From: a bacterium
Lineage (GTDB): Bacteria; Bacillota; Clostridia; Lachnospirales; Lachnospiraceae
Direction: 5' to 3'
DNA: 64,000 bases
Assembly: GCA_023663725.1 (NCBI GenBank)
Contig: JAMPGX010000003.1
Location: 62,001 to 126,000 of the forward strand
In this document: positions 17,612 to 60,255 of the stretch, piece by piece
Layout: each line of letters opens with the position of its first letter
Position numbering within the stretch: position 1 is the first letter of the stretch
Notes under the pieces: model-generated
The model's database searches: none
Told to the model about the DNA's origin: nothing
The model's input: only the letters and a program-made list of their open reading frames with translations
Position numbers and translations under genes: made by a program

Positions 17612-18536
17612 AATATTGCTGCTGATGGAACTGCTGGTGGGATTTCTGCTGTTGTTTCTGTGGATCAGGCGGGGCAGTATATTGCGTTCGCTGTGGCGCA
17701 GGGCCTATGATTCCCTGGAGATGGCTGCGGCGAGGAGAGTTCAGGACAACAGGCGCAGCCTGCAGGCGCTGTCGGCAAAAAAGAATTTCTGGCAGCGCAT
17801 GGAACAAAGGCTGATATATAGCGGCATAAGCAGATACTTCCCCTTTTTGACCCCAGAGCTGTGGGTTCTGGCACATCTGGCGCTGGCGGCGGCAGCCTAT
17901 TTTCTGGCGCTGCTTCTGGGGGCGACATGGCTGGCGGCGCTTCTGGCAGGGCCCGCGCTATGGCTCCTGATCAATTTGGCGGTGAATGTGTGCATGGGAC
18001 GCAACTATAATGCCACTGACGAAAATCTGATGAAGTTCCTCGACTTTCTGGGAAATTACAGCATCACATCGGGTGAGATCACCGCCGTGCTCAGCCAGGT
18101 GAGTCCCTATGTGGGGGAGCCCTTGAGAAGCGTGCTGGAAGCCTGTTATTATGAGGCACAGACCTCCGGTGACACCAGTATTGCTCTGCTGGCCATGGCG
18201 GAGAAGCTCCAGCATCCAAAGTTCCAGGAACTGGTTCGGAATCTGGAGATCAGCCTCCGATATTCGGCAGATTTGACGGTAATGGTGGCGCAGAGCAGAC
18301 GATCTCTGCGGGAATACACCCGAATGAGACAGGAGAGAAGGTCTCTGGTGCGGGAGGCATGGGTCAATATCGTGATTCTGGGCGCCATGGTAGTGGTCAT
18401 CCTAAAGGCGCTGGAAGCGCTGGTGGGCATTCCGCTGTCCAGGATCATGTTGCACACCCTGCCGGGAATTGGCTGCCTGGCAGTGATCGGGACGATATTG
18501 CTGCTATTTTACAGGCAGGTGAGAAACTTGGATTAA
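17595..18536 (+). CDS. TadB-like pilus inner-membrane platform protein
   Basis: 313 residues. One N-terminal helix (residues 5-25), a cytoplasmic basic linker, a helical pair near 95-130, a soluble helical domain resembling T2SSF/GspF (VRNLEISLRYSADLTVMVAQS near 210-230), and two C-terminal helices (255-275 and 285-305). This is the layout of TadB, which forms the membrane platform with TadC. AGGGAGA precedes the start, which overlaps the end of the ATPase gene. Confidence 0.82.
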   Translation: MRDCIRILLLMELLVGFLLLFLWIRRGSILRSLWRRAYDSLEMAAARRVQDNRRSLQALSAKKNFWQRMEQRLIYSGISRYFPFLTPELWVLAHLALAAAAYFLALLLGATWLAALLAGPALWLLINLAVNVCMGRNYNATDENLMKFLDFLGNYSITSGEITAVLSQVSPYVGEPLRSVLEACYYEAQTSGDTSIALLAMAEKLQHPKFQELVRNLEISLRYSADLTVMVAQSRRSLREYTRMRQERRSLVREAWVNIVILGAMVVVILKALEALVGIPLSRIMLHTLPGIGCLAVIGTILLLFYRQVRNLD

Positions 18537-18559
18537 TATATTGGGGGGAAAGAAAATTT

Positions 18560-19402
18560 ATGGATTTTGTGATGATACACAGAATTTTGCAGGGAATACA
18601 GCTGACAGCCGCGTTGTTGATCGGCGTAGAGGGAATCTGCCTGATGGCCGGCGGACATACCAGGGAGGTGGTTCTGCGCACCTATGATGCCTTCTGTATG
18701 CGGGCCCGCAGCAAAAAGGGGCTGCTGTGGGACTATGAGAAATGTGAAGAATTCCTCCGCGTCAACGGCGCGGCGTACCACTATGGAAAATGGATGAATC
18801 CCATCAGCTTTGTAACCCTCTGCGTGGTTCTGGCAGGCGCGGGAATGTTGATCGGACTCTCCTGGGGTGTGTTGCCGGGAATTGCGGGAGCTGTGCTGGC
18901 TGCCGTTTTGCCGGGGCTGTTGTTGGAGCGCATGAACCAGCGGGATAACGAGGCCATGCTGACAGAGCTGAATCTGGTGTACAACGCGCTGGCGATACAG
19001 ATCAGGGCGGGAGTCTACATCACAGACGCTTTGGCAGAGGTATATGGAAGCGTGAGTCAGGTCCGTCTGCGCGACGGACTCCAGAACCTGTCCGGCGCCA
19101 TCGTGATGAAGGCCGATCTGGATGAAGCGCTGGAACAGTTTCAGGGGCAATTTAACAACCGCTATATCGACTCGCTGTGTATTACGATCATGCAGGCCAT
19201 GGAGTCGGGGCAGGCGGTGGAGCTGCTGGGAGATATCGCGGACCAGATCAGGGATATGGAGCTGACGCTGCAAGGTCGCAGAAAGGAAAGGCTGGATCGC
19301 AGCATCACCTTCTACCAGCTGGGGATATTTGCCGCGATTATCGCGGTGGTGCTGTATGCTTGTGTAGAGCATATGTTTATGAATAATGTGTTTTGGAATT
19401 GA
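18560..19402 (+). CDS. TadC-like pilus inner-membrane platform protein
   Basis: 280 residues from the ATG at 18560, preceded by GGGGGGA; upstream open frame runs back into TadB and is not real. It has an N-terminal helix, a helix pair near residues 80-120 and a C-terminal helix, with a T2SSF-like domain (ELNLVYNALAIQIRAGVYITDALAEVYG near 135; MQAMESGQAVELLGDIADQIRDME near 211). It pairs with TadB. It is followed not by the pilin gene directly but by an inserted R1 repeat. Confidence 0.82.
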   Translation: MDFVMIHRILQGIQLTAALLIGVEGICLMAGGHTREVVLRTYDAFCMRARSKKGLLWDYEKCEEFLRVNGAAYHYGKWMNPISFVTLCVVLAGAGMLIGLSWGVLPGIAGAVLAAVLPGLLLERMNQRDNEAMLTELNLVYNALAIQIRAGVYITDALAEVYGSVSQVRLRDGLQNLSGAIVMKADLDEALEQFQGQFNNRYIDSLCITIMQAMESGQAVELLGDIADQIRDMELTLQGRRKERLDRSITFYQLGIFAAIIAVVLYACVEHMFMNNVFWN

Positions 19403-19414
19403 GTGAAAATCAAT

Positions 19415-19635
19415 TAGACAATTGCGAAACTTGGTTACTATGCGAGTGTCATTGTGTACATTGTACATTCCAACGCAAGCACGCTCTCGCTCCGTTCTCA
19501 CCGTAGCGGTACTAAGCTCGTGCCGAATAAATTCGGCAAACCTCGCTAAGTACCGACGGCTCGAAAGGGCATTGCTTATGGAATATACAATATGCACAAT
19601 TCGGTACTGGCAAAAGACAGTTTTGAAATTACCTA
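19415..19635 (+). repeat. R1 repeat, copy 1 (imperfect palindrome, about 221 bp)
   Basis: Begins TAGACAATTGCG and ends near AAATTACCTA. Outer arms ATTGTGTACATTGTAC..TTCCA and TGGAATATACAATATG..CACAAT are inverted; the centre CGGTACTAAGCTCGTGCCG..CTAAGTACCG can form an apical stem. It lies inside the Tad locus between the tadC-like gene and the small pilin-like gene. Confidence 0.85.
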
Positions 19636-27743: not shown

Positions 27744-27807
27744 AGAACCACATTATGGGGAATGCGCGGCGGATTAAGCTCAGAGAAGCAGAGCAATGCC
27801 TACTGAT

Positions 27808-27864
27808 GAAAGGGCACTGCTTATGGAATATGTAAAATAGAAGGCTTTGTAATTGTCTATACAG
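27808..27864 (+). repeat. R1 repeat remnant (deletion derivative)
   Basis: GAAAGGGCACTGCTTATGGA followed by ATATG matches the right half of R1, and GGCTTTGTAATTGTCTA matches its right end; the segment between them and the whole left half are missing. It lies in the leader of the glycosyltransferase gene. Confidence 0.65.
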
Positions 27865-41380: not shown

Positions 41381-41405
41381 CAGAGCGGGCAGAAAGAGAC
41401 TATTA

Positions 41406-41625
41406 TAGACGATTGCGAAAATCGGTTACTATGCGAGTGTCATTGTGCACATTGCATATTCCAACGAAGGCACGCTCTCGCTTCGTTCTCACTGTAGCGG
41501 TACTAAGCTCGTGCCGAATGAATTCGGCAGACCTCGCTAAGAACCGACAGTTCGAAAGAGCCTACTTATGGAATATGCAATATACACAATTCGGTACTGG
41601 CATAAGGCTGTTTTGCAATTGCCTA
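41406..41625 (+). repeat. R1 repeat, copy 2 (about 220 bp)
   Basis: Begins TAGACGATTGCG and ends CAATTGCCTA. Arms ATTGTGCACATTGCATATTC and GAATATGCAATATACACAAT are inverted. Same central CGGTACTAAGCTCGTGCCG as copies 1 and 3. One base shorter than copy 3 around AGAGCCTACTTATGG, which breaks any shared reading frame. Confidence 0.87.
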
Positions 41626-41657
41626 AAAGAGCTTATTATATGGAGAGGAGAAGAGGA

Positions 41658-57217: not shown

Positions 57218-57265
57218 TTGTAAATACTTTTCCCCAAAAAGATAGAAAAAAATTGATTATATATC

Positions 57266-57294
57266 TTGACAAAGCCGGCTCTCTCATATAAACT
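57266..57294 (+). promoter_or_regulatory. Promoter of the T-box-aspS transcript
   Basis: TTGACA (57266-57271), 17 bases, TAAACT (57289-57294). Confidence 0.75.
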
Positions 57295-57300
57295 ATACAA

Positions 57301-57728
57301 AGCAGAACACTCAAAGGCGAGGTTTCAGACTGTAGTTTTTGTGTGTTTTGTTTTTTATATCATAAGAAAATGCAGTGAAGGAGACCCTTGTCAGGGGAAG
57401 CGACAGGAAGGCTATGGCTTTGGATGCATACACCCAAGGCTGGCAGGCGTGAGAAAAGGTAGCTTGCCGCCACCGACTGAGAGCATGGCCAGCGGAAACT
57501 GACTCACAGGCAACACTCCGGAGCAGGCTGTCTGAACCTGGCCGCAGGGCTGTATGGCGGAAGCATATTTTGCCGTAGCTTATGCTGGCGAGTAAGTAGG
57601 ATGGTTCGTTGTACGCGTTAAGTGCGAGAGTGGGCAGGAGCACGGAAGAGTTTTTGCCAATGCGGGTGGTACCGCGGATATCGATATATCCGTCCCGGAA
57701 TACAGCAATTGTATTTCGGGATTTTTTT
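57301..57728 (+). promoter_or_regulatory. T-box riboswitch (tRNA-sensing leader of aspS)
   Basis: The diagnostic T-box sequence AATGCGGGTGGTACCGCGG is at 57659-57677, with a stem III-like GTGC..GCAC hairpin just upstream (about 57630-57651). A 12-bp terminator stem follows: TCCCGGAATACA (57693-57704) with TGTATTTCGGGA (57710-57721) and a seven-T run. In T-boxes uncharged tRNA binding stabilises the antiterminator; the downstream aspS predicts tRNA-Asp. I could not assign the specifier codon by eye. The terminator's right arm can also pair with ATCCCTCGAAATAC just downstream. Confidence 0.92.
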
Positions 57729-57794
57729 ATCCCTCGAAATACAAGGCGAAGCGTGAAAAGAGATATTATTGAAGCATGGGAAGGAGAGACAGAC

Positions 57795-59546
57795 ATGACA
57801 CAGAAAAACAGTTACAGAGATATGCACATTGGACAGATCAGCGAGCAGCTGATCGGCAGCGGCATCAGGGTGGCCGGATGGGTGGAGAATATCAGAGATC
57901 ACGGCGGCGTGTCCTTTGTGGACCTGCGGGATATGTATGGCACCTTACAGGTGGTGCTGCGCGACACGGAGCTGCTGAAAGGGCTGAGTCGGGAGATGTG
58001 CGTCTCGATCTACGGTATCATGGAAAAGAGGGATGAGGATACCTACAATCCCCGTATACCCACCGGAACGATAGAGCTTGAGGCCAGAAGTGTTGAGGTG
58101 CTGGGAAAGGTGTATCGGCAGCTGCCCTTTGAGGTGATGACCTCACGGGAGACCAGGGAGGAGGTGCGCCTGATCTACCGCTATCTGGACCTGCGCAACG
58201 CCAAGGTGAAGGATGCTATCGTGTTCCGCTCTCAGGTGATCAGCTTCCTGCGGCAGAAGATGACGGAGCTGGGATTTCTGGAGATTCAGACCCCTATTCT
58301 CTGCGCCTCCTCCCCGGAGGGAGCCAGGGATTATATCGTGCCATCTCGCAGACACAAGGGAAAATTCTACGCATTGCCCCAGGCTCCCCAGCAGTATAAG
58401 CAGCTATTGATGGTGTCGGGATTTGACAAATATTTTCAGATTGCTCCCTGTTTTCGGGACGAGGACGCCAGGGCCGATCGGTCTCCCGGAGAGTTCTATC
58501 AACTGGACTTTGAGATGAGCTTTGCGACCCAGGAGGATGTGTTTCGGGTGGGCGAGGAGGTGCTGTCGGCAACCTTTGAGAAGTTTGCCCCGGAGGGCTT
58601 TGCCATCACGCAGGCCCCCTTTCCGGTGATCAGTTATCGTCAGGCAATGCTGGAGTATGGCACCGACAAGCCCGACTTGCGCAATCCCCTGCGCATTCTG
58701 GATGTGACAGCGTTCTTTCAGGAGTGTAGCTTCCGGCCTTTTCTGCACAGAACCGTGCGGGCGATCAAGGTCCATGCCGAGATGAGCAAGGGCTTCCACG
58801 AAAAGCTGTTGTCCTTTGCCACGGGTATGGGCATGGGTGGCCTGGGGTATCTGGAGGTGGCGCAGGACCTCTCCTATAAGGGGCCGATCGACAAGTTTAT
58901 TCCTCAGGAAAAAAAGGGGGAGCTGGCGCAGCTTGCCGGTCTGGAGGCTGGAGACACTATATTTTTCATCGCGGATAAGGAGGAGCGGGCAAATTACTAT
59001 GCCGGCAGGCTGCGCGTCGAGCTGGGGGAAAAGCTGGGGCTGGTGGAGCAGAACGCTTATCGCTTCTGTTATGTGAACGATTTCCCCATGTATGAGATCG
59101 ACGAAGAGACCAGGCAAATCTGCTTTACGCACAATCCGTTCTCCATGCCCCAGGGTGGACTGGAGGCGCTGCGGCAGAAAGAGCCCCTTGACATTCTGGC
59201 CTATCAGTATGATATTGTATGTAATGGAGTGGAACTGTCTTCGGGAGCCGTGCGCAACCATGATATGCAGATTATGGTCGAGGCTTTTGCCATCGCGGGC
59301 TATGACGAGGAGACGCTGAAGCGCAAGTTTGGAGCCCTGTATCAGGCATTTCAGTTCGGTGCGCCGCCTCATGCGGGCATGGCCCCTGGGGTGGACCGTA
59401 TGCTGATGCTGCTTCGGGGCGAGGAAAATATTCGCGAGGTCATTGCCTTTCCCATGAGCGGCACGGGCCAGGACCTGATGTGCGGTGCGCCGGGAGATGT
59501 GACGGAGCAGCAGCTCAGAGAGGTGCATATCAAGTTGCGGGATTAG
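57795..59546 (+). CDS. aspS: Aspartyl-tRNA synthetase, probably non-discriminating (AspRS/AsxRS)
   Basis: 583 residues from the ATG at 57795 (GGAAGGAGAG upstream), the normal bacterial length including the GAD insertion. The anticodon domain has GWVENIRDHGGVSFVDLRD; class II motifs are RYLDLRN..., CFRDEDARADRSPGEFYQLD and GVDRMLMLLRG. The His in RDHGG (Leu in E. coli) is a residue associated with non-discriminating enzymes that also charge tRNA-Asn, which fits gatCAB downstream. The stop codon TAG is also the first triplet of an R1 repeat. Confidence 0.97.
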   Translation: MTQKNSYRDMHIGQISEQLIGSGIRVAGWVENIRDHGGVSFVDLRDMYGTLQVVLRDTELLKGLSREMCVSIYGIMEKRDEDTYNPRIPTGTIELEARSVEVLGKVYRQLPFEVMTSRETREEVRLIYRYLDLRNAKVKDAIVFRSQVISFLRQKMTELGFLEIQTPILCASSPEGARDYIVPSRRHKGKFYALPQAPQQYKQLLMVSGFDKYFQIAPCFRDEDARADRSPGEFYQLDFEMSFATQEDVFRVGEEVLSATFEKFAPEGFAITQAPFPVISYRQAMLEYGTDKPDLRNPLRILDVTAFFQECSFRPFLHRTVRAIKVHAEMSKGFHEKLLSFATGMGMGGLGYLEVAQDLSYKGPIDKFIPQEKKGELAQLAGLEAGDTIFFIADKEERANYYAGRLRVELGEKLGLVEQNAYRFCYVNDFPMYEIDEETRQICFTHNPFSMPQGGLEALRQKEPLDILAYQYDIVCNGVELSSGAVRNHDMQIMVEAFAIAGYDEETLKRKFGALYQAFQFGAPPHAGMAPGVDRMLMLLRGEENIREVIAFPMSGTGQDLMCGAPGDVTEQQLREVHIKLRD

Positions 59547-59764
59547 GTGATTGAGGAACTTGGTTACTAGAAGAGTGTCATTGTGCAGCTTATATATTCC
59601 AACGCAGGCACGCTCTCGCTTCGTTCTCACCGTAGCGGTACTAAGCTCGTGCCGAATGAATTCGGCAGACCTCGCTAAGTACCGACGGTTCGAAAGAGCA
59701 CTGCTTATGGAATATATAAGTTGCACAATTCGGTACTTTCTTAAGGCAGTTTCACACTTGACTA
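59544..59764 (+). repeat. R1 repeat, copy 3 (about 221 bp)
   Basis: Starts at the aspS stop codon (TAGGTGATTGAGG) and ends CTTGACTA. Central part is nearly identical to copies 1 and 2 (CTCGTGCCGAATGAATTCGG). Outer arms diverge in parallel: GTGCAGCTTATATATTCC against GGAATATATAAGTTGCAC stays paired. Confidence 0.87.
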
Positions 59765-59775
59765 ATTGATGCGTG

Positions 59776-60030
59776 TAGTCGATTGGGGAACTTGGTTACT
59801 AGTGTGCTGTACCGTTCACTTTCAGTTAAATGACGCAGAATGAATTTTCAGTCTGCAAGGCGGCTGAATGAGGCGTAGCGGTGGCTACGTCGATTGAAGC
59901 CAACGCAGCAGTTGGAAATTCAGGCAAGTCATTTAGCGAAATGCGAATGGTACAGTACACTAGAAGAGAGTTATAGTGTAATTTGTATGTTTCTATGCAG
60001 CATTGGCAATAAACAGTTTAGCAATTACCA
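59776..60030 (+). repeat. Internally deleted R1 derivative, split by R2
   Basis: The left piece, TAGTCGATTGGGGAACTTGG and TTACTAG, matches the start of R1. The right piece after R2 (59964-60030) continues AAGAG and ends GTTTAGCAATTACCA, like the R1 right end. The palindromic middle is missing. Confidence 0.68.
59799..59963. repeat. R2 palindromic element with 36-bp terminal inverted repeats
   Basis: Arms at 59799-59834 and 59928-59963 are imperfect inverted repeats (CTAGTGTGCTGTACC against GGTACAGTACACTAG; TTAAATGAC against GTCATTTAG). Inside are GTAGC..GCTAC and TGAATTTTC/GAAATTCA arms. CTAG at both tips fits a target duplication or is part of the arms. No coding capacity. Confidence 0.75.
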
Positions 60031-60044
60031 ATACTGCATTGATA

Positions 60045-60255
60045 TAGGCAATTGCGAACCCCTTTATTGCCAGTACCGAATTGTGTATATTGTACATTCC
60101 ATAAGCAATGCCCTTTCGAGCCGTCGGTACTTAGATGCTGTTTTATAGCATCTTATGTACCGCTACAGTGAGAACGGAGCGAGAGCGTGCTTGCGTTGGA
60201 ATGTACAATGTGCACAATGACACTAGCATAGTTACTGGCTTTTCGCAAACGCCTA
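60045..60255 (-). repeat. R1 repeat, copy 4 (inverted, about 211 bp, replaced apical hairpin)
   Basis: Reverse orientation relative to copy 3. Arms are conserved, but the central hairpin between the two GTAC boxes is unrelated to other copies: AGATGCT (60134-60140 region) pairs with AGCATCT around TTTTAT. It ends 30 bases before gatC. Confidence 0.83.

Follow-up and report, generated by a model that had tools for sequence, protein, structure and literature searches.

R1, a palindromic repeat of about 220 bp, is probably a MITE of an IS1182-like element, with an interior that is a copy of a widespread hairpin and with arms that evolve by copying at the DNA level. It was followed from the window, that is, the whole stretch of 64,000 nucleotides that was analysed (C33:62001-126000), which belongs to a draft genome of 3.63 Mb referred to as G000. 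The assignment of R1 as a non-autonomous transposon (MITE) is well supported by comparison of sequences. The conserved hairpin is a larger and more surprising find than the MITE identity: it represents a large, apparently uncatalogued family. No description of an R1-type repeat was found in the literature searched, which lay mostly outside subscription journals and bioRxiv. The features of the window are listed in Table 1.

Table 1. Features of R1 and related elements in the window
Feature	Position	Strand	Evidence or remark
Copy 1 of R1	19415..19635	+	sequence match
Truncated R1, right end only	27805..27859	+	end motif, judged by eye
Left target-site duplication of the focal R1, AAAGAGACTATTA	41393..41405	.	
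Focal R1 copy (copy 2), well-supported MITE, TAG...CTA ends	41406..41625	+	duplication; empty sites
Left terminal inverted repeat of the focal R1, IS1182-like type	41406..41420	+	
Main stem P1, 5' arm, focal copy	41442..41463	+	91% complementary to 41569-41590
Conserved one-sided bulge CACGCTCTCGCT, focal copy	41471..41482	+	
Conserved core segment TAGCGGTACTAAG, focal copy	41495..41507	+	
Conserved core segment CTAAGAACCGACA in the focal copy, consensus CTAAGTACCGACG	41537..41549	+	
Main stem P1, 3' arm, focal copy	41569..41590	+	
Right terminal inverted repeat of the focal R1, IS1182-like type	41611..41625	-	
Right target-site duplication of the focal R1, AAAGAGCTTATTA	41626..41638	.	two differences
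Copy 3 of R1	59544..59764	+	initial TAG is the stop codon of an aspS-like frame
Different palindromic element between copies 3 and 4, ends similar to R1	59776..60031	+	
Copy 4 of R1	60045..60255	-	opposite orientation to copy 3

All four copies reported by the initial annotation are present in the window: copies 1-3 are on the forward strand, and copy 4 is inverted. The TAG...CTA termini are common to the copies, whereas the CAATTG motif, which had also been taken as a shared boundary, varies (the left end of the focal copy reads GACGATTG). The focal copy folds at -83.7 kcal/mol (z -6.78), which was equalled by none of 200 shuffled sequences; the minus strand gave a folding z of -7.06. Two copies had been placed directly after stop codons. 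The TAG of copy 3 (59544-59546) is itself the in-frame stop of the aspS-like (aspartate-tRNA-synthetase-like) frame 57609-59546, and copy 1 starts 13 bases beyond the last base of 18359-19402. The paired changes that had been noticed between the arms of the copies are real; in addition, a paired C-G at alignment columns 50/172 is present in the focal copy only.

A search of the genome with R1, as had been proposed, gave at least 102 distinct matches, of which at least 65 are full length. These counts come from the fetched stretches only, with 40 of 119 first-look candidates scored, and are hence lower bounds. The congener G017 has at least 24 matches, at least 20 of them full length, with an identity of about 74%. 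In the window, a different palindromic element is situated between copies 3 and 4, so that 59544-60255 is an array of three elements, located between the aspS-like gene and gatA and gatB (assigned with Pfam); a gatC probably lies between them, judging by position. One more related copy of the middle element was found in the fetched stretches of G000. Upstream of the aspS-like gene there is a long stretch (57240-57610), for which the sole Rfam match up to an E value of 1 was far under its gathering score.

Several variants of these elements were also observed. A palindrome of about 142 bp, whose ends are those of R1 and whose core is unrelated, occurs in multiple copies and frequently adjoins R1 (L098:1095-1236, L110, L103, L104, L082 and L087 in G000, and several loci in G017). 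R1 forms of 150 bp (L072:625-775 and L088:1024-1175) keep both arms, and the apical part of the hairpin is gone. Contigs C5 and C25 stop 54 bases into an identical R1 end (L091:2837-2890 and L092:1-54), which looks like an assembly break at a perfect palindrome; this is perhaps a very young copy.

The proposal that R1 is a non-autonomous MITE is supported by target-site duplications, by empty sites, and by an element that encodes a transposase and shares the ends of R1. A duplication score of 8 or more was obtained for 13 of the 62 full-length copies of G000 and G017, compared with 0.56% of 1240 shuffled flank pairs; the score was below 8 in the other 49 copies. The good duplications are 11-14 bp long, and in several R1 arrays the spacing between neighbouring elements is approximately one duplication length. 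In the empty-site comparison, which covers the focal locus only, R1 is missing from the congeners G056 and G052, where both flanking genes are present with roughly 43 and 60 bp between them, respectively. In G067, this locus is occupied by about 200 bp of different sequence. Furthermore, the end pattern TAGRYRWTTGYRAAA (up to one mismatch) had 193 matches in the genome versus 22 for the reversed control.

The partner element was located on contig C44 by tracing ends that lack the R1 interior. It has a transposase of 485 amino acids, which is preceded by the end TAGGCGTTTGCGAAACGCC; the opposite end, GTTTCGCAATTACCTA, lies in C33:1-146, a stretch that overlaps with the beginning of C44. The best NCBIfam match of this transposase is IS1182 (NF033551), and the best Pfam match is DUF772. 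Since the NCBIfam score of 78 bits is far under the curated cut-off of 270, the partner is named IS1182-like only. Its ends (TAGGCGTTTGCGAAAC / TAGGTAATTGCGAAAC) and its duplications of 9-13 bp further distinguish it from the IS1182 family and mark a putative separate lineage. A DDE_Tnp_1 (Pfam) transposase on contig C43 was also considered as the partner, and was set aside because no R1-like end pair flanks its gene.

The G000 assembly has one copy of the partner transposase. The protein was matched in 23 of the 101 genomes of the genus (own genome included), mostly over short or distant stretches. G017, which is 87% complete, has at least 20 full-length R1-type copies, yet no transposase match. 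The ends recur in long homologues from congeners, which are flanked by duplications of 11 bp (GTATATTCTAA, in G084) and 13 bp (ATTTTGTAGCCCC, in G053); the long homologue of G005, also with these ends, showed no clear target duplication. Both ends were found at 58 of 80 named transposase loci, 1.6-1.8 kb apart. Exact duplications of 9-13 bp, mostly 11 or 12, are present at 32 of these 58 loci; five further loci have a duplication of 12-13 bp with one mismatch, and one has a duplication of 4 bp. No duplication was found at 18 loci (one of these without an upstream flank), and at two the flank is cut, so that duplication is not judgeable. A search of plasmids with the partner transposase gave five records. 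R1 and the IS1182-like element thus share ends of 15-16 bp and a similar duplication length, and the latter may mobilise R1 in trans. A covariance-model search around the 80 named loci found no core beside the IS.

The core is the inner part of R1, approximately 125 bases. Its covariance model was built from 18 sequences: 111 candidates yielded 107 extracted cores, of which 23 were kept and 18 used. The P1 arms account for 12 pairs in the model and are often much longer in the elements. Inward from P1 are the block GCAGRC/GTCTGC, the one-sided bulge ACGCTYTCGCT, which is conserved (also given as CACGCTYTCGCT), the variable stem P2, and a 2-nt bulge. The core stem CGGTACT/AGTACCG is conserved, the apex is either AAGCTCG...ACCTCGCTAAG or a simple hairpin, and inserted hairpins are optional. 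These pieces occur in differing combinations within G000. The GTAG of the core varies, and CGTAA, CGCAG, and CGTCG were seen. One arm in Eisenbergiella porci is 88 bp long with 4 mismatches. Long near-perfect palindromes around the core, with arms of roughly 70-88 bp, were seen at L406 (E. porci), L407, and L415 (CE91-St56); it is known that very long near-perfect palindromes are usually unstable in bacteria.

The interior is conserved within and between genomes. In G000, the number of rare variants per column is 2.7 at the left end, 1.9 at the right end, and 0.3-1.3 in the interior (columns 31-190). Many interior letters are identical in G017 and, in the core, across 46 genomes. Gene conversion among the copies could contribute to this sameness; as the apex is variable, the fit to a simple conversion gradient is poor.

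The core model matched at least 72 of the 101 genomes of the genus, at least 122 of 299 genomes (at least 121 of 298 genera) sampled from the family, probably Lachnospiraceae, and at least 5 of 398 genomes across the phylum, of which four belong to that family and the fifth does not; all these figures include the own genome. Five congeners searched singly gave at least 15, at least 42, at least 40, 8, and at least 53 matches. Weak matches in other congeners have the same core with unrelated, yet self-complementary arms, mostly with no IS1182-type ends nearby. Among 18 named genomes, all chosen as IS carriers, the core is present in eight: Roseburia inulinivorans DSM 16841 (39 matches), bacterium D16-36 (35), Lachnospiraceae CE91-St56 (31), D16-51 (19), Eisenbergiella porci (12), Acetatifactor stercoripullorum (12), Parablautia intestinalis (3), and 1XD42-76 (2). 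It is missing from the other ten, for example Ruminococcus torques and Blautia massiliensis. Rfam 15 gave no match at the gathering score in the window and none up to an E value of 10 for the focal copy. The core pattern was not found in viral contigs with an exact pattern, a strict search and so a weak negative. Because the core is conserved over many genera, something probably recognises it.

The hairpin does not seem to be bound to one kind of terminus. Both IS1182-type ends were found at 4 of 17 loci of other congeners (L225, L226, L230, and L231) and at 1 of 22 readable loci at the family level (L346; 27 loci were surveyed and five were not located), and the arms at the congener and family-level loci are unrelated. 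The regions read for L228 among the former and for L349 among the latter were misplaced. These ends are also present at L411 of R. inulinivorans, besides R1 in G000 and G017. In G006, at least 7 of at least 15 core copies are inside a larger repeat with the inverted ends AAATGGAAAGTTAG, of which 489 bp are common to two copies at 99%. Both stretches of G006 that were searched against Rfam also hold the TwoAYGGAY motif. No transposase or target duplication was found for this repeat of about 490 bp. At L397 of G006 (about 1434-1921), the stop of the frame 1076-1435 marks the beginning of the repeat. Since the core in G006 has other ends, the hairpin appears to be carried in at least two frames, and it may be a cargo riding on several transposons.

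Covariation in the hairpin is very strong. In the covariance-model check, a covariation of 0.711 was obtained on 56 rows compared with 0.189 for shuffled alignments, none of 500 shuffles being equal; the double-change cells on these rows numbered 552 versus 140 shuffled. With 88 distinct rows from other genomes, the values were 0.717 and 0.200. It should be mentioned that the alignments A3-A5 were fitted to the model, which favours the pairs of the model, and that the 56-row A5 and the 91-row A3 include opposite-strand palindrome matches (L221 and L229 in A5; L229 in A3). In the tests run, neither a lack of covariation, nor a lack of common boundaries, nor an already catalogued family was encountered.

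Paired changes are also seen among the copies of G000. Rare double changes (in up to three copies of G000) that keep Watson-Crick pairing occupy 27 cells and represent 18 distinct changes, where approximately 0.5 cells are expected if the changes are independent; paired-change cells are not independent of one another. Unpaired rare double changes occupy 11 cells, which is above expectation too, and all of these are in columns 1-29. Beyond alignment column 29, there are 21 paired double changes and no unpaired one. The rare single changes in R1 comprise 155 unpaired and 17 paired changes. Among the paired R1 changes, several involve a transversion in either partner. In CE91-St56, two copies differ at 15 arm positions, of which 10 are paired in both. 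In general, the arms vary from species to species and also among the copies of a genome, with self-complementarity retained. This supports the proposal that the fold is under selection or is copied as one unit, and for the arms copying at the DNA level is the better reading. Template switching during replication can yield paired changes in one step, as described in PMC8794818. Together with the occurrence of paired changes within one genome, this favours arm copying on DNA, perhaps with selection, a reading that we hold with moderate confidence. Copying of the arms from flanking host DNA at insertion was considered and seems less likely: related copies of G048 share diverged outer arms. These shared arms and the paired differences in CE91-St56 fit better with inheritance accompanied by paired drift.

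A mechanism can be outlined on this basis. R1 would depend on the transposase of the IS1182-like element that has the same ends of 15-16 bp, and its interior would be one copy of a palindromic element that is widespread and combines a conserved asymmetric core with long arms. Replication most likely templates one arm on the other repeatedly (quasipalindrome template switching), which would keep the pairing on DNA while the arms drift. The core would most likely be recognised in the form of a hairpin that extrudes from single-stranded or supercoiled DNA; this is the weakest step. The broader proposal, of a selfish or domesticated DNA hairpin throughout the Lachnospiraceae, with a conserved asymmetric core recognised by some host or element-borne factor, carried as cargo between unrelated transposons and having template-switching arms, is possible but tentative.

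The orientation of the elements relative to the neighbouring genes, which were defined by a crude longest-frame rule, differs between samples. In 44 elements outside G000 and G017, no orientation preference was found (13 both-sense and 16 both-antisense). Of 69 near-full-length copies in G000, 16 are both-sense and 25 both-antisense, and the left end of R1 is no more than 60 bp from the 5' end of a leftward-leaving gene 30 times, compared with 12 times for the mirror case; in G017, the corresponding numbers are 7 and 5. In G000 and G017 pooled, many distances of R1 to the 5' ends of genes are about 28-36 bp. A role as a 5'-UTR or terminator was considered; the orientation is unbiased in the 44 outside elements, though biased in G000.

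The initial annotation also offered a mobile structured RNA. In such a reading, the hairpin would act as a transcript, for instance as a trans-acting RNA or as an element that stabilises mRNA or is processed by RNase III, and selection on the RNA fold would account for the paired changes. The strong covariation, the conserved bulge and core stem, the orientation bias within G000, and the company of TwoAYGGAY in the G006 repeat are in line with this. Wobble pairs are informative here, since under selection for an RNA fold G-U is tolerated and A-C is not. When one sequence per genome was counted (46 of the 56 rows of A5), all stems together had 40 GU and 39 AC in 1742 cells, and the P1 arms had 8 GU and 12 AC in 550 cells, which speaks against an RNA; in P2 and P3 together the numbers were 24 GU and 5 AC, which leans towards one, and the P3 share is in one column. 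All R1 cells in G000 likewise favour GU (335 GU and 174 AC in 4886 cells), and about 125 of these GU cells are two nearly fixed wobble pairs (columns 34/190 and 35/189). Against this, the rare R1 changes are symmetric: 13 GU and 13 AC among changes in a single copy, 23 and 25 events among changes in up to four copies, and 18 and 12 events (p 0.36) in the inner region for up to three copies. The lack of orientation bias in the outside elements, the lack of an Rfam match, and the 88-bp arm with 4 mismatches also disagree with an RNA. Some core stems and the fixed R1 wobbles lean towards the RNA reading, but the symmetric wobbles over 46 genomes and the unbiased outside elements do not, and we consider it unlikely.

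It is also rather unlikely that R1 is an ordinary selfish MITE with a functionless core, the copies being recent or homogenised by recombination among about 100 and the palindromy being a habit of MITEs. The ends, duplications, and empty sites would be explained in this way, as would the unrelated 142-bp palindrome, which has the same ends and is also multi-copy. A functionless core is difficult to reconcile with its conservation in at least 121 of the 298 genera sampled, with the scarcity of IS1182-type end pairs at the congener and family-level loci, where the arms are unrelated, and with the variation within G000. The terminal ends are the part needed by a transposase, but they are more variable there than the interior. 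A recognition site of a site-specific recombinase or an HUH-type enzyme acting on a folded single strand, like integron attC or REP/RAYT, would make the IS1182-like ends one of several vehicles. The conserved one-sided bulge, the 2-nt bulge and the variable apex inside the hairpin would suit such a site, and so would the absence of orientation preference outside G000 and the repeat with other ends in G006. REP/BIME elements have a short hairpin with a GTAG foot and a RAYT tyrosine transposase, and integron attC sites have core boxes plus a gene cassette; neither the attC boxes nor the REP foot is evident by eye in the core, and this explanation seems improbable. The reading of R1 as a MITE of an IS1182-like element, with a widespread hairpin inside and arms copied on DNA, is retained as the probable one.

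ERIC elements are palindromic. As described in PMC10969869, those of enterobacteria are also, like R1, intergenic; they number from tens to hundreds per genome and have a family-level spread. R1 differs from ERIC in host lineage and length, and in that a transposase element with matching ends has been identified. The IS-derived MITEs treated in the same text are, like R1, short, mostly intergenic and without a transposase; they have a stable predicted hairpin, and their terminal inverted repeats and target duplications resemble those of an IS. In contrast to the MITEs reviewed there, R1 shares ends of about 16 bp with the IS, and its interior is a conserved, widespread hairpin with an asymmetric core, which also occurs away from these ends. 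The main text of PMC10969869 does not mention IS1182, Clostridi-, or Lachnospir-. The TwoAYGGAY RNA (RF01731), listed in PMC2864571, is a structured motif from gut bacteria and Clostridiales. The 489-bp repeat of G006 contains this motif together with the R1-type core, but the motif is a separate stretch with a separate model, and in Rfam the TwoAYGGAY model had no match in the R1 copies of the window. Mutation of hairpins by template switching, in the account of PMC8794818, leads one to expect that both partners change at once and that the stems stay perfect; RNA genes were studied there, whereas R1 is a high-copy mobile palindrome.

These results add a large, apparently unlisted family of structured elements to those of gut bacteria, with cultured carriers such as Roseburia inulinivorans, and link a lineage of IS1182-like transposases to a prolific MITE. 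R1 insertions lie near ribosome-binding sites, and one supplies a stop codon. The family is also a test case for the question of whether compensatory changes in stems prove an RNA function: the symmetry of the wobbles in the arms and the absence of orientation preference outside G000 indicate copying on DNA despite strong covariation. If the hairpin is indeed a cargo with template-switching arms, its copies would be a natural record of arm-to-arm copying.
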